A stretch of DNA of 64,000 nucleotides from positions 1 through 64,000 of the forward strand of contig JAFGIP010000029.1 in assembly GCA_016929525.1 (NCBI GenBank), given 5' to 3'. A model generated the notes under the pieces. The model saw nothing but the letters and a program-made list of their open reading frames with translations. It was not told where the DNA came from and made no database searches. The translations under genes were made by a program, and so were the position numbers. This document shows positions 28,221 through 48,297 of the stretch, in pieces (positions within the stretch are counted from its first letter, which is position 1; each line of letters begins with the position of its first letter). The DNA comes from Bacteroidales bacterium (GTDB lineage: Bacteria > Bacteroidota > Bacteroidia > Bacteroidales > UBA10428).

Positions 28221-28404
28221 AGAAAAATTATTTCGGGCATAACAAATACATTGCTATATCCTTTTAATAAAAGTCTGGTTACAGATATCAGGCAACCAAT
28301 GTATTAAAAATTAATTTATCTGTAAAAAAAAATAACAGATCAAGTTTTTAAGGTGCGTGCAAATATAAAAGAATTTAACTTCTAGATCGGCAACTTAAAA
28401 AAAA

Positions 28405-28435
28405 TTGTCATTATTTAAAAAGAAATATATCTTTG
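28405..28435 (+). promoter_or_regulatory. Predicted promoter of the tRNA-Met transcript
   Basis: TATCTTTG (28428-28435) fits TAnnTTTG and a TTG (28405-28407) lies 20 bases upstream, the form of strong Bacteroidota stable-RNA promoters. The start would be near 28442, about 260 bases before the intact tRNA, so the transcript would also hold two hairpins and an interrupted tRNA copy. Confidence 0.6.
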
Positions 28436-28446
28436 CATCCGTTTTT

Positions 28447-28527
28447 ATCCACCGTAGCTATGAACATTATGAATAGCGAAGGTGGATTTTATTAATTAGA
28501 TACCGCCTGCGCATGAAGCTATGGCGG
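28447..28527. repeat. Two palindromic units upstream of tRNA-Met
   Basis: Unit 1 (28447-28487): ATCCACC / GGTGGAT with inner GCTAT / ATAGC. Unit 2 (28503-28527): CCGCC / GGCGG around TGCGCATGAAGCTAT. Both have the look of one REP-type family (outer G/C arms, inner AGCTAT). They sit within the predicted tRNA-Met leader. Confidence 0.65.
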
Positions 28528-28533
28528 ACAAAG

Positions 28534-28662
28534 GGCGAGGTAGCTCAATCCCGATAAACCAGAAATCCCTGCTTGAAGCAGGCAAGTGTGATTTCATAGT
28601 TTATCGAGGATTCTTGAAAATCAGGCAAATCGGAGATTTGTGATTTTCGGGATTAGAGCGCG
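28534..28662 (+). pseudogene. tRNA-Met 5' copy interrupted in the D-loop by a double-hairpin element
   Basis: GGCGAGGTAGCTCA (28534-28547) is identical to the first 14 bases of the intact tRNA-Met at 28704, and TTAGAGCGCG (28653-28662) is identical to its D-stem/anticodon-stem junction. Between them the D-loop GCTGG is replaced by about 105 bases: ATCCCG, hairpin 1 (GATAAAC/GTTTATC with inner CCTGCTTGAAGCAGG at 28568-28582), linker TCGAGGATTC (28604-28613), hairpin 2 (GAAAATCA/TGATTTTC, inner CAAATC/GATTTG), CGGGAT. Downstream of 28662 the anticodon arm decays (ATAATTCAGAAGTCGCG). It cannot give a working tRNA. Confidence 0.75.
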
Positions 28663-28703
28663 ATAATTCAGAAGTCGCGTTCATATAGCTGAAAATATAT
28701 AAT

Positions 28704-28777
28704 GGCGAGGTAGCTCAGCTGGTTAGAGCGCGTGATTCATAATCACGAGGTCGAGGGTTCAAGTCCCTCTCTCGCTA
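28704..28777 (+). tRNA. tRNA-Met (anticodon CAT)
   Basis: 74 bases, full cloverleaf: acceptor GGCGAGG / TCTCGCT (two G-U pairs), D-arm GCTC...GAGC, anticodon stem CGTGA / TCACG with loop TTCATAA, variable AGGTC, T-arm GAGGG TTCAAGT CCCTC, discriminator A. CCA is not encoded (CAT follows). The paired first base and the D-arm fit elongator Met; a lysidine-modified Ile tRNA also has CAT but I judge it less likely. Confidence 0.93.
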
Positions 28778-28798
28778 CATATTGATAAACAATAAGTT

Positions 28799-28825
28799 AG
28801 TCAGTCTTTATAGGCTGGCTTTTTT
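28799..28825 (+). terminator. Terminator of the tRNA-Met transcript
   Basis: AGTCAGTC (28799-28806) pairs with GGCTGGCT (28813-28820) with two G-U pairs, followed by a T-run (28819-28825). Confidence 0.8.
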
Positions 28826-28839
28826 ATTTAAATTACTTT

Positions 28840-28853
28840 GGAGTCTGATTTTG
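28840..28853. repeat. Left 14-bp direct repeat flanking the hip module
   Basis: GGAGTCTGATTTTG, identical to 30571-30584, lies four bases from the hipT stop. At the right end the core TGGAGTCTGATT occurs once more (30583-30594). The pair encloses hipBST. Confidence 0.75.
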
Positions 28854-28856
28854 CTT

Positions 28857-29864
28857 TTAATACATATTTAGCTTCTTCAAACGTTCAATATAATGATCTT
28901 TATAAAGCTTCTTAGTCTTCTCGTTTAAAAATGATCTTTCAATTAAAGCTGCTACCTCTGTTTGATCTTTCAAAAATGGTTCAAGTAATTTTTCAACTCT
29001 CTGTCTATCAATACCTATTTTTTTACCGAACTCGATAAAATCTTCTTTGCATGGATGATGTTCTGGATTTTCTATTCTGCATTTGGACCAGTTCCATTTT
29101 TTAAACAAATCATCTTCTAATGCAAATGGACTTTCTTCTTCAACATGGATTCTCGTATTTAAAAGATCGTATGCCGGACTTAAGATATAGTCTCCGTTTT
29201 TTGTTTCCAGTACCGAAAAATTTTTTAAATGAGCATCACCATTTGAAAAAAGGAAGTTGAAAATAATAAGATTGTAATATTTTTCTATTTCAACTTTCCA
29301 GGCTCCTATGTACTTTTTTATCATTTCTGCTATGCCTTCATAAGAGTAGTTATACTTAAAGTTTGTACCTGCGTTTTCTTCAGTTTTCCCTGCTAATGAG
29401 GCAAAATCTTCTTTACCTAATTTGGTTCCATCCAAACCTACATCAAATCGTTTTGTAAGGTATGCAGCTTCATTATTTCTAAAAAATACTAAACCGTTTT
29501 CTGCTGTTTGTATTTTATATACCTGTGAAGCAATTTGCATGGTTAAATGCTCATTAGCAGGAATCATATCTGTCCTCTTTAATCCATGTGGTATGGGTTT
29601 TAGTATATAGGTTCCACGTTCATTTTCCTCAGTTAATCGAAGATTGTTTTTATCAAGTATTATTGAATACTTTTCTTGAACACCTGAGATAGAAATTTGT
29701 TTCTGGTTCTGCATGAATTTCTTTTGATCTTCTTCGTCAAGTTCCGGGGCATTATAAGGCAGGAAATGGCTAACCTTTTTTCCATTAAACATTCTTCGAA
29801 GAAAAAGAGGGCTGTAGTCTGTGTAACCCTCTAATAGCAAACCTGGGCAGTTTTTAATTTCCAT
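28857..29864 (-). CDS. hipT: HipT-type serine/threonine kinase toxin
   Basis: 335 aa, the HipA kinase core without the N-subdomain 1, as in HipBST systems. The S-I-S motif that carries autophosphorylation sites in HipT is at Ser58/Ser60 (QISISGVQEKYS); ATP-site Lys89 (YILKP); catalytic Asp210 with His212 and Asn215 (NGDAHLKN); metal Asp233 (YDLLNT). Characterised relatives phosphorylate an aminoacyl-tRNA synthetase and stop growth; the target here is not known. It follows hipS by 11 bases. All key residues are present, so the toxin looks functional. Confidence 0.9.
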   Translation of the reverse strand: MEIKNCPGLLLEGYTDYSPLFLRRMFNGKKVSHFLPYNAPELDEEDQKKFMQNQKQISISGVQEKYSIILDKNNLRLTEENERGTYILKPIPHGLKRTDMIPANEHLTMQIASQVYKIQTAENGLVFFRNNEAAYLTKRFDVGLDGTKLGKEDFASLAGKTEENAGTNFKYNYSYEGIAEMIKKYIGAWKVEIEKYYNLIIFNFLFSNGDAHLKNFSVLETKNGDYILSPAYDLLNTRIHVEEESPFALEDDLFKKWNWSKCRIENPEHHPCKEDFIEFGKKIGIDRQRVEKLLEPFLKDQTEVAALIERSFLNEKTKKLYKDHYIERLKKLNMY

Positions 29865-29875
29865 GAAAGCTGTGT

Positions 29876-30199
29876 TTAGTCAATTTGCTTTATTGTTATC
29901 GCACCAGTAGTATCGTATTTTGCAGTGGCTAATAGCAGACCAAAGAAATCTTGCTCGTCAATTCTAAGATGCTTGGATTGAACCAGTCTATTTGTCCCTT
30001 CAGAAAGCATATTATAGAAGAAAGGAAACAAATATTCTGAAGTATATGTTTGTTGCGATTTGGGCAGTGTTAGACTGATGGCAGGCATAGATGAATCATT
30101 GTAATAATTGTTATCATATGTAAATTCAAATCTGCCTTGATCCGTTTCGATAAGAGTCCCTGCCAAGTTTCCATTTCTATAAACTTCTGCACATCTCAT
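29876..30199 (-). CDS. hipS: HipS-like small protein (HipA N-subdomain 1)
   Basis: 107 aa matching the N-terminal subdomain of HipA: AEVYRNGNLAGTLIE, ISLTLPKS, EYLFPFFYNMLSEG and DEQDFFGLLLATAKYDTTGAI. In HipBST this piece is a separate protein and acts as the antitoxin. Its ATG overlaps the hipB stop (30196-30199), coupling their translation. Confidence 0.88.
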   Translation of the reverse strand: MRCAEVYRNGNLAGTLIETDQGRFEFTYDNNYYNDSSMPAISLTLPKSQQTYTSEYLFPFFYNMLSEGTNRLVQSKHLRIDEQDFFGLLLATAKYDTTGAITIKQID

Positions 30200-47787: not shown

Positions 47788-47879
47788 GGTGAGATGGGTG
47801 AGTGGCTGAAACCATCAGTTTGCTAAACTGACGTACTGGGTAACTGGTACCGGGGGTTCGAATCCCCCTCTCACCGCCA
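47788..47879 (+). tRNA. tRNA-Ser (anticodon GCT)
   Basis: 92 bases with encoded CCA. Acceptor GGTGAGA / TCTCACC, anticodon stem TCAGT / ACTGA with loop TTGCTAA, long type II variable arm (GTACTGGGTAACTGGTAC), T-arm GGGGG TTCGAAT CCCCC, discriminator G. Confidence 0.95.
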
Positions 47880-47964
47880 CTTAATTGAAACAACCACTAT
47901 AGACAAGACGCTTGCAGTAATGCAGGCGTTTTGCATTTATGGGGGATGAGAACAGAAGGGCAGG
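47868..47964 (+). repeat. 97-bp direct duplication, copy 1
   Basis: Runs from the 3' acceptor strand of tRNA-Ser through its terminator to GCAGG. Copy 2 (48079-48175) differs at only four of 97 positions, exactly 211 bases on, so the duplication is recent. Confidence 0.9.
47908..47934 (+). terminator. tRNA-Ser terminator
   Basis: ACGCTTGCA (47908-47916) pairs with TGCAGGCGT (47921-47929, one mismatch), then TTT. Repeated at 48119-48145 within copy 2. Confidence 0.7.
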
Positions 47965-47966
47965 AA

Positions 47967-48090
47967 GGGTTCGAACACCCGCCAAGGCGGGGCTCATGAG
48001 GAACAGAGTGATGAATAATCCCCTCCCGAAAATCTTTAGATTTTCGAGGATGCACGAATCCGGTTTACGGATTCGGCACTCTCACCGCCA
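47967..48090 (+). pseudogene. tRNA-Ser 3' copy interrupted in the T-loop
   Basis: GGGTTCGAA (47967-47975), the T-stem/T-loop of tRNA-Ser, is cut off after TTCGAA by about 103 bases; the tRNA then resumes as CTCTCACCGCCA (48079-48090), ending with CCA. The insert contains CCCGCCAAGGCGGG (47978-47991), a hairpin CGAAAATCT / AGATTTTCG (48027-48046), linker TCGAGGATGC (48044-48053) and a hairpin CGAATCCG / CGGATTCG (48055-48075). The TCCCGA-hairpin-TCGAGGATKC-hairpin order is the same as in the element in the tRNA-Met copy at 28548. Confidence 0.7.
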
Positions 48091-48175
48091 CCTAATTGAA
48101 ACAACCACTATAGTCAAGACGCTTGCAGCAATGCAGGCGTTTTGCAATTATGGGGGATGAGAACAGAAGGGCAGG
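48079..48175 (+). repeat. 97-bp direct duplication, copy 2
   Basis: Second copy of 47868-47964. Its right edge, GCAGG, is also where a truncated secreted-protein frame begins. Confidence 0.9.
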
Positions 48176-48297
48176 TAGTGCGTACATTTAATAAAAATGA
48201 AACCGTTCTTAATTTGGATGGTATTTTTCATGGCTTGTACTTACTAAAGGTTGCAACAATAGAAGGGGTAGGAGTTAATAAAGTGGTTGTAAGATAA
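48157..48297 (+). pseudogene. Relic of a T9SS-sorted protein gene (C-terminal end only)
   Basis: The frame reads EGQVVRTFNKNETVLNLDG, then HGLYLLKVATIEG and ends NKVVVR-stop, the last ~45 residues of a type A sorting domain. Everything upstream is replaced by duplicated tRNA-Ser flank. A proper terminator follows, so a real gene once ended here and was cut off when the tRNA region was rearranged. Confidence 0.75.

Follow-up and report, generated by a model that had tools for sequence, protein, structure and literature searches.

Upstream of its intact tRNA-Met gene, the window (the whole 64,000-nucleotide stretch analysed) carries a partial copy of the same gene with a palindromic element, here termed E, lodged in its D-loop. 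E consists of two hairpins in head-to-head arrangement; a 3-bp foot closes each of them, usually with one bulged base. The initial annotation had described a tRNA 5' copy broken in the D-loop; this holds for the tRNA-Met locus but is incomplete, as E forms a widespread family that extends beyond tRNA-Met and also sits in 3' half-copies. We consider it probable, with moderate confidence, that E is a non-autonomous, REPIN-like mobile palindrome whose insertions survive in redundant tRNA half-copies. Essential single-copy tRNA genes would be expected to be closed to insertion, yet in the window's genome E lies in partial copies beside 11 of 39 tRNA genes. Across the order it reaches at least 19 genera, the cultured hosts being Draconibacterium orientale and D. 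sediminis. These loci provide a natural system for the joint action of partial tRNA duplication and hairpin mobility, and for the persistence of such copies, and tRNA annotation will meet many half-copies in E-bearing bacteria. No published description of the half-tRNA plus E arrangement was found in the full-text literature, the coverage of which excludes most subscription journals.

The features of the window are listed in Table 1. The half-copy begins with GGCGAGGTAGCTCA, every base of which, from the sequence read against the tRNA call, equals its counterpart in the intact gene. Direct reading thus confirmed the 14- and 10-base matches reported around a palindromic element upstream of tRNA-Met. 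Where the intact gene has D-loop bases 28718-28722 (GCTGG), the half-copy has A28548 followed by E (28549-28652). The sequences ATCCCG (28548-28553) and CGGGAT (28648-28653), proposed as the bounds of the element, are present; their pairing as one outer stem is absent from the predicted folds, where each belongs to the foot of a different one of two neighbouring hairpins. Folded as DNA, 28548-28655 forms this pair of hairpins at -26.0 kcal/mol (z -6.7, equalled by 0 of 200 shuffles), and the RNA fold of 28534-28662 has a z of -4.0. The covariance model score of this copy is 92.6 bits, but the copy is one of the five seeds of the model. A small hairpin is possible at the edge of the spacer (CGCGA...TCGCG, 28659-28679). 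The spacer is 0.59 identical to that of the same locus in G003 (shuffles 0.55). A search of 28300-28900 against Rfam (E-values up to 1) placed no family on E and returned the intact tRNA and two weak antisense plastid matches to the tRNA; the window's copy of E was therefore rejected as an RNA element known to Rfam. Just downstream of tRNA-Met, on the minus strand, lie genes for HipA C-terminal and N-terminal domains (28857-30199; PF07804, PF13657).

Table 1. Features of the tRNA-Met and tRNA-Ser loci of the window
Feature	Position	Strand	Basis or remark
Promoter-like sequence, Bacteroidota-type	28405-28435	+	TTG 28405-28407, TATCTTTG 28428-28435
tRNA-Met 5' half-copy (acceptor 5' strand and D-stem 5' strand)	28534-28547	+	14/14 identity to 28704-28717
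E hairpin 1	28549-28610	+	Foot TCC/GGA, bulged A28607, apical hairpin extended in window copy; DNA fold
E hairpin 2	28611-28652	+	Foot TTC/GGA, bulged T28614; DNA fold, model match, compensatory changes among copies
Half-copy remainder (rest of D-loop and D-stem 3' strand), TTAGAGCGCG	28653-28662	+	10/10 identity to 28723-28732
Spacer, half-copy to intact tRNA-Met	28663-28703	+	No visible trace of other tRNA arms
Intact tRNA-Met (CAT)	28704-28778	+	ARAGORN; Rfam tRNA 70.6 bits
Intact tRNA-Ser (GCT)	47788-47879	+	tRNA call
First copy of 100-base tandem duplication (tRNA-Ser 3' end, terminator-like hairpin, downstream DNA)	47868-47967	+	
Second E, short form	48023-48078	+	At T-stem/acceptor border of tRNA-Ser 3' half-copy, not in T-loop
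Second copy of 100-base duplication	48079-48178	+	95% identical, directly right of E

A single TANNTTTG box is present on the + strand between 28250 and 28703, at 28428-28435, in keeping with the Bacteroidota promoter consensus. The sequence GAAATATATCTTTG is common to four relatives (G004, G006, G007 and G008) upstream of the same tRNA-Met, its end lying 42 to 146 bases from the gene in these genomes versus 268 in the window. Because there is one such box upstream and GAAATATATCTTTG is shared, E is probably transcribed together with the working tRNA-Met, in line with the promoter prediction of the initial annotation.

The second E of the window, at tRNA-Ser, scored 28.9 bits (E-value 0.015) with a model of five copies (R1) and reached an E-value of 9.8e-5 with a larger model (R2), though this copy is among R2's 27 rows.

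The structure of E was consistent among copies. Its median length was 87 bases, it comprises two 43-base hairpins, and alignment and consensus fold of 27 copies agreed on two adjacent inverted palindromes. The base at the bulge position was A or T in 69 of 71 copies for one hairpin and 68 of 71 for the other. One foot is nearly always TCC/GGA; the second is variable yet complementary in nearly all copies (feet seen were TCC/GGA, TGC/GCA, CTC/GAG, CCC/GGG, TTC/GAA and a few others). In the 27-copy alignment 96.2% of 682 stem cells were paired, falling to 63% or 47% when the partner was shifted by one column, and two-sided changes numbered 126 against a shuffle mean of 35.6 (0 of 500 shuffles reached 126). 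G-U pairs made up 9 of 656 paired cells in E versus 28 of 369 in the acceptor and T stems of tRNAs from the same genome; single-sequence folds gave a weaker contrast (5.4% in tRNA-linked E, 10.5% in tRNAs). Since wobble pairs are rare and two-sided change is frequent, DNA-level pairing or palindrome correction, rather than RNA folding, is indicated, and the combination of few G-U pairs with covarying stems suggests a constraint on E at the DNA level. The case for an RNA-level constraint was lowered by the scarcity of G-U pairs in the alignment. In genome G001 hairpin 1 is identical at tRNA-Gly (L050) and tRNA-Phe (L051) and hairpin 2 differs, as if hairpins had been exchanged singly.

The genome from which the window comes (G000; 4.06 Mb, 122 contigs) contains many further copies. 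When the half-copy together with its element served as the query of a DNA search, related sequences appeared upstream of tRNA-Asn, tRNA-Trp, tRNA-Glu and a second tRNA-Met. R1, built on the element and one or two flanking bases, identified 13 distinct places with 150 of 2283 candidates scored, and 13 of 13 are in partial tRNA copies; five are its own seeds, which came from a query that included the half-tRNA, and the other eight came from the element-only model. Eleven adjoin the intact gene of their own tRNA type: two Met, fMet, Asn, Trp, Glu, Ala, Val, Ser-GGA, Ser-GCT and Pro ('fMet' and the numbering of Met genes are labels given in this analysis). Of the remaining two, one shares the Pro half-copy with the E already counted, and the other, where its contig stops, lies in what reads as a half-copy of tRNA-Asp; no tRNA-Asp is among the 39 tRNAs found in the genome. 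A further fragment of E in a tRNA-like stretch (L006) was seen by BLAST only.

Partial copies of a tRNA close to itself (at least 12 identical bases, within 400 bp) were found for 12 of the 39 tRNAs, where a cross-tRNA control expects 0.17 and the antisense count is 0. Chance is thus excluded as the source of these copies. Half-copies that lack E do exist, as they would if a duplicated tRNA had decayed and acquired a palindrome by accident, but with 13 of 13 copies of one genome at tRNA copies against that control, we give such an origin a negligible probability; recurrence of E in 19 genera refutes it.

Within the family E was matched in 4 of 23 genomes (19 had no match at an E-value of 1e-4), and across the order in 26 of 393 genomes and 19 of 206 genera, a search in which 11 candidates were scored per genome under stricter filters, so that copy numbers are lower bounds. 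R2, the model of 27 rows, includes 23 tRNA-linked copies with two flanking bases on each side and may favour tRNA sites. By eye, the best match per genome was in a tRNA copy in 15 of the 26 genomes. Among 52 places printed, 34 are tRNA copies, 29 of them with some intact tRNA within 400 bp, and 18 are not in tRNA copies, the sample being non-random as places L231-L250 were hand-picked. Several of the non-tRNA places lie in mini-repeats such as GGTTCCTGGTTCC.

The matches flanking E are not part of the element, since they follow the neighbouring tRNA (Gly, Glu, Leu, Pro and others) with E constant, and E was also found without tRNA sequence at the 18 places just mentioned. The tRNA-Gly genes, for example, start with GCGGAAA in G001 and G003, GCGAAAA in G302 and GCGAGAA in G234, and the half-copies match (that of G001 differs at its first base). 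Similarly, the D-loops of tRNA-Glu differ among G000, G284 and G088 and the half-copies track them, some with one or two mismatches.

A pattern joining D-loop and E matched 22 stretches in named genomes, including the complete genome of Draconibacterium orientale FH5T (three places, in D-loop copies at tRNA-Val, tRNA-Thr and tRNA-Met) and D. sediminis, as well as metagenome-assembled genomes titled Prolixibacteraceae, Salinivirgaceae, Bacteroidales, Bacteroidota, Bacteroidetes, Chlorobiota and Chitinophagales. One hairpin pattern gave no exact match in viral contigs, and one E copy used as query gave no match in plasmids, both being narrow tests. In D. sediminis a tRNA-Val-like sequence (L271, 3618-3800) has E in its D-loop and a palindrome replacing the anticodon arm, the T-arm and 3' end being kept; no intact tRNA-Val was called within about 500 bases. 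Tandem arrays of E occur at L257, L217, L235 (four E in tRNA-Leu 3' copies) and L245. At L257 (4900-5329) three nearly identical 138-bp units of half-tRNA and E continue right up to the edge of a 229-kb contig, and the array is perhaps longer; no intact tRNA was called there. The intact partner was not seen at L257, at L271 or for copies at contig ends.

The position of E relative to the tRNA is regular. In upstream cases a promoter-like box and a leader precede the 5' half-copy, whose D-arm holds E; a short remainder of loop and stem, a spacer and the intact tRNA follow. Downstream loci show the reverse order, E occupying the T-loop or, at L039, L040 and L042, the border between T-stem and acceptor. 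The mapping covered 48 of 51 tRNA-linked copies, tandem copies being counted singly and L044 (at a contig end), L240 and L249 left out. With the D-arm taken as bases 12 to 26 and the T-arm as 10 to 28 bases from the 3' end, E falls in the D-arm at 30 of 32 upstream copies and in the T-arm region at all 16 downstream ones, 13 of which have it within the T-loop itself. The upstream outliers are L248, which sits in the acceptor stem, and L038, which lies next to a nested palindrome and was probably mis-scored. The commonest junctions among the 48 were GG^TT (15), AG^TT (13) and AG^CT (6). RG^TT or RG^CT accounts for 35 of the 48, and for 11 of 20 non-tRNA copies (on one strand). Direct repeats at the junctions of 71 copies measured 0 bases in 59, one base in ten, two bases in one and seven in one. 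All placements seen were in partial tRNA copies or intergenic DNA.

E lies 15 to 68 bases from the intact tRNA in 29 of the 32 upstream copies and 133 to 340 bases in the other three; in the 16 downstream copies the distance is 42 to 470. These distances bear on whether the half-copies might be old att remnants left by tRNA-targeting integrative elements (with tyrosine integrases), E being a later arrival. Partial tRNA copies are a known outcome of such integration, according to PMC9897764, but the gaps are too small for an integrase gene between copy and gene, and the breaks, found both before and after genes, fall within D- or T-arms. Such scars are accordingly a very unlikely source.

Comparison of the tRNA-Met locus among relatives, which the initial annotation had suggested, covered 19 loci, with the tRNA visible in 11. 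Ten other genomes show the window's locus together with its tRNA (and with the START-domain neighbour following), and E is absent from it in all ten. In seven of them (G004, G006, G007, G008, G009, G010 and G014) the locus is clean, with neither half-copy nor E. G015 and G022 have an upstream half-copy with other palindromes, and G012 has downstream 3' copies. Partial copies within 400 bp were found for 3 of 31 tRNAs in G005, 0 of 14 in G007 and 7 of 34 in G022 (tRNAs covered were 31 of 35, 14 of 34 and 34 of 41, respectively), with 0.1 to 0.4 expected over these genomes and G000; the antisense control gave 0 in G000, G005 and G007 and 2 in G022. As half-copies occur in G005 and G022, which lack E, partial tRNA duplication proceeds without it.

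Some half-copies have the anticodon arm replaced by an unrelated palindrome, at L142 (G022, 24-105), L178 (G005, upstream of tRNA-Pro), L037, L047 and L111; the palindrome at L142 is, for example, TCCCGACACCTGGTGTCGGGA, and ARAGORN calls the L142 sequence a tRNA. In G000 the plain palindromes TCCCGATAGTTATCGGGA (L117) and TCACGATAGCTATCGTGA (L162) are in the D-loop and T-loop of partial tRNA copies, so E is not the sole palindrome lodged in such copies.

Two populations of E can be distinguished by similarity. Copies away from tRNAs had a mean identity of 0.94 within a genome (over 16 pairs; G208 and G232, picked after equal scores were noticed, supply 12) versus 0.72 between genomes (174 pairs); three non-tRNA pairs of G049 were 0.79 to 0.88 identical. 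For tRNA-linked copies identity was 0.68 both within one genome and between genomes. Since these are equally unlike within and between genomes, no recent spread among tRNA genes is seen. Copies at the same tRNA type in different families reached 0.73 (22 pairs) versus 0.68 (904 pairs; label permutation p 0.01, led by tRNA-Gly), a difference which, coming mostly from tRNA-Gly, weakly suggests tRNA-type-specific lineages of E. At tRNA-Gly of G001 and G003, which belong to the window's genus, E is 0.95 identical, the spacer 0.72 (0.62 shuffled), and the upstream and downstream flanks are at the shuffled level.

If E is a REPIN-like mobile palindrome, it would be inserted by a trans-acting enzyme for single-stranded hairpins, most likely of the HUH/Y1 kind, and would go mostly between RG and TT or CT with no target duplication. 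D-loops (AG^TT, GG^TT) and T-loops (GG^TTC) fit this target. In E-bearing bacteria and their relatives tRNA genes are often partly duplicated in tandem, the 5' part upstream or the 3' part downstream. A hit in the sole working copy of a tRNA would presumably be lethal, and surviving insertions would be those in a redundant half-copy beside an intact gene. There E might persist for long, diverging with compensatory changes and sometimes amplifying in tandem. In the window, the original promoter would read leader, half-copy, E and spacer before the working tRNA-Met.

Passive survival alone leaves two observations unexplained. RG^TT by itself fails to account for the placement of 13 of 13 own-genome copies at tRNAs, and E outlasts the spacer at some loci (tRNA-Gly of G001 and G003), which passive persistence would not predict. 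The alternatives are that E acts as a rescue cassette or has a leader function.

As a rescue cassette, E joined to a tRNA's inner half (in the order E, remainder of the loop, spacer and a new 5' half) would insert as a unit into the loop of the working tRNA gene and rebuild the gene downstream; the half-copy would be the cut-off end of the original gene, and mirror-image units would act at the T-loop. The order half-copy, E, loop remainder, spacer and intact gene is expected from this in both 5' and 3' versions, and tRNA-Gly of G001 has a 5' unit (L050) as well as a 3' unit (L090). The arrays at L257 (three 138-bp units), L235 (four E), L217 and L245 could be tandem units, and the slight excess of likeness between same-type copies in different families points the same way. 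Against this, relatives without E also have half-copies, the spacers of same-type units are near the shuffled level in most pairs compared, and tRNA-specific units would be needed; we know of no enzyme for such tRNA-specific insertion. We regard the rescue cassette as rather unlikely. No likelier, in our estimate, is the related reading that half-tRNA and E together form a gene-less parasite of tRNA genes, which enters a working D- or T-loop and rebuilds the gene beside itself from the target's own sequence; if this were true, essential single-copy tRNA genes could be colonised with the host not killed.

Retention of half-copy and E as a leader or trailer, with hairpins that regulate or process the adjoining pre-tRNA, would agree with the single promoter-like box from which E is probably transcribed. 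It would also agree with the better conservation of E than of the spacer at pairs of tRNA-Gly, Pro, Leu, fMet and Glu, and with a GTTCTTTAA-like stretch, presumably resembling boxA, that is often found between E and the gene. The few G-U pairs, however, are unlike selection for RNA pairing, E is also found downstream of genes and away from tRNAs, and 19 of the family's 23 genomes gave no match to it, so a functional leader appears unlikely.

No mobilising enzyme for E was found at the loci covered. Y1_Tnp searches of 15 and then 10 further genomes gave 79 matches in 24 of 25 genomes, and among the 62 loci examined none has E on its flanks (the E model was run over 60 loci and a single-hairpin scan over 62, up to 1.5 kb on each side, some cut by contig ends). 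A weak Y1 locus, L295, lies about 1.2 kb from an E, and another (L276) has a doubtful E match (E-value 0.14). A REPIN borne by a RAYT was accordingly rejected for the loci examined. In G000, two identical palindromes, AAGCGTAGTTGCAAACTACGCTT, unlike E, flank a Y1_Tnp gene (L096, contig C51, 40-62 and 974-996). A transposase beside the non-tRNA copies was likewise set aside, on the length and first residues of the open frames at 19 loci.

Among known systems, Rickettsia palindromic elements are palindromes that insert into genes. They are mentioned in PMC3733652. E differs from them in having been seen only in partial tRNA copies or intergenic DNA. Like the scars of tRNA-targeting integrative elements, E loci pair a partial with a complete copy of one tRNA gene; unlike these, the copies are tens to hundreds of bases apart, the break in the D- or T-arm is filled by a palindrome, and the 15 to 470 bases between E and the intact tRNA in 48 copies leave no room for an integrase gene or kilobase element. 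Miniature elements derived from IS200/IS605 have hairpin ends with an extrahelical base and insert beside a short target without duplication. E shares the extrahelical base, the adjoining short target and the lack of a target-site duplication; its hairpins are mutually inverted, however, making it nearly strand-symmetric, and no transposase was found.

REPs, described in PMC3733652 as palindromes with a GTAG or CGTC tag at the end, are treated together with the Y1 superfamily there and in PMC6006769. REPINs or BIMEs are pairs of REP palindromes whose presumed mobiliser is RAYT, a Y1 HUH transposase. Copies of E lack the GTAG and CGTC tags of described REPs, are lodged in tRNA loops, where they are old and diverged, and have one foot nearly constant (TCC/GGA) and the other variable. 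On the favoured reading E works like a REPIN but is not classed as one, because end tags are missing and no E-flanked Y1 gene was found at the 62 of 79 matches examined. Near-identical dispersed copies, a REPIN trait, were seen among non-tRNA copies of some genomes, mainly G208 and G232, but not among tRNA-linked ones. What E has in common with REPINs and BIMEs is two inverted hairpins of about 40 bases with a bulged base near the foot, insertion without target duplication and the absence of a gene of its own.
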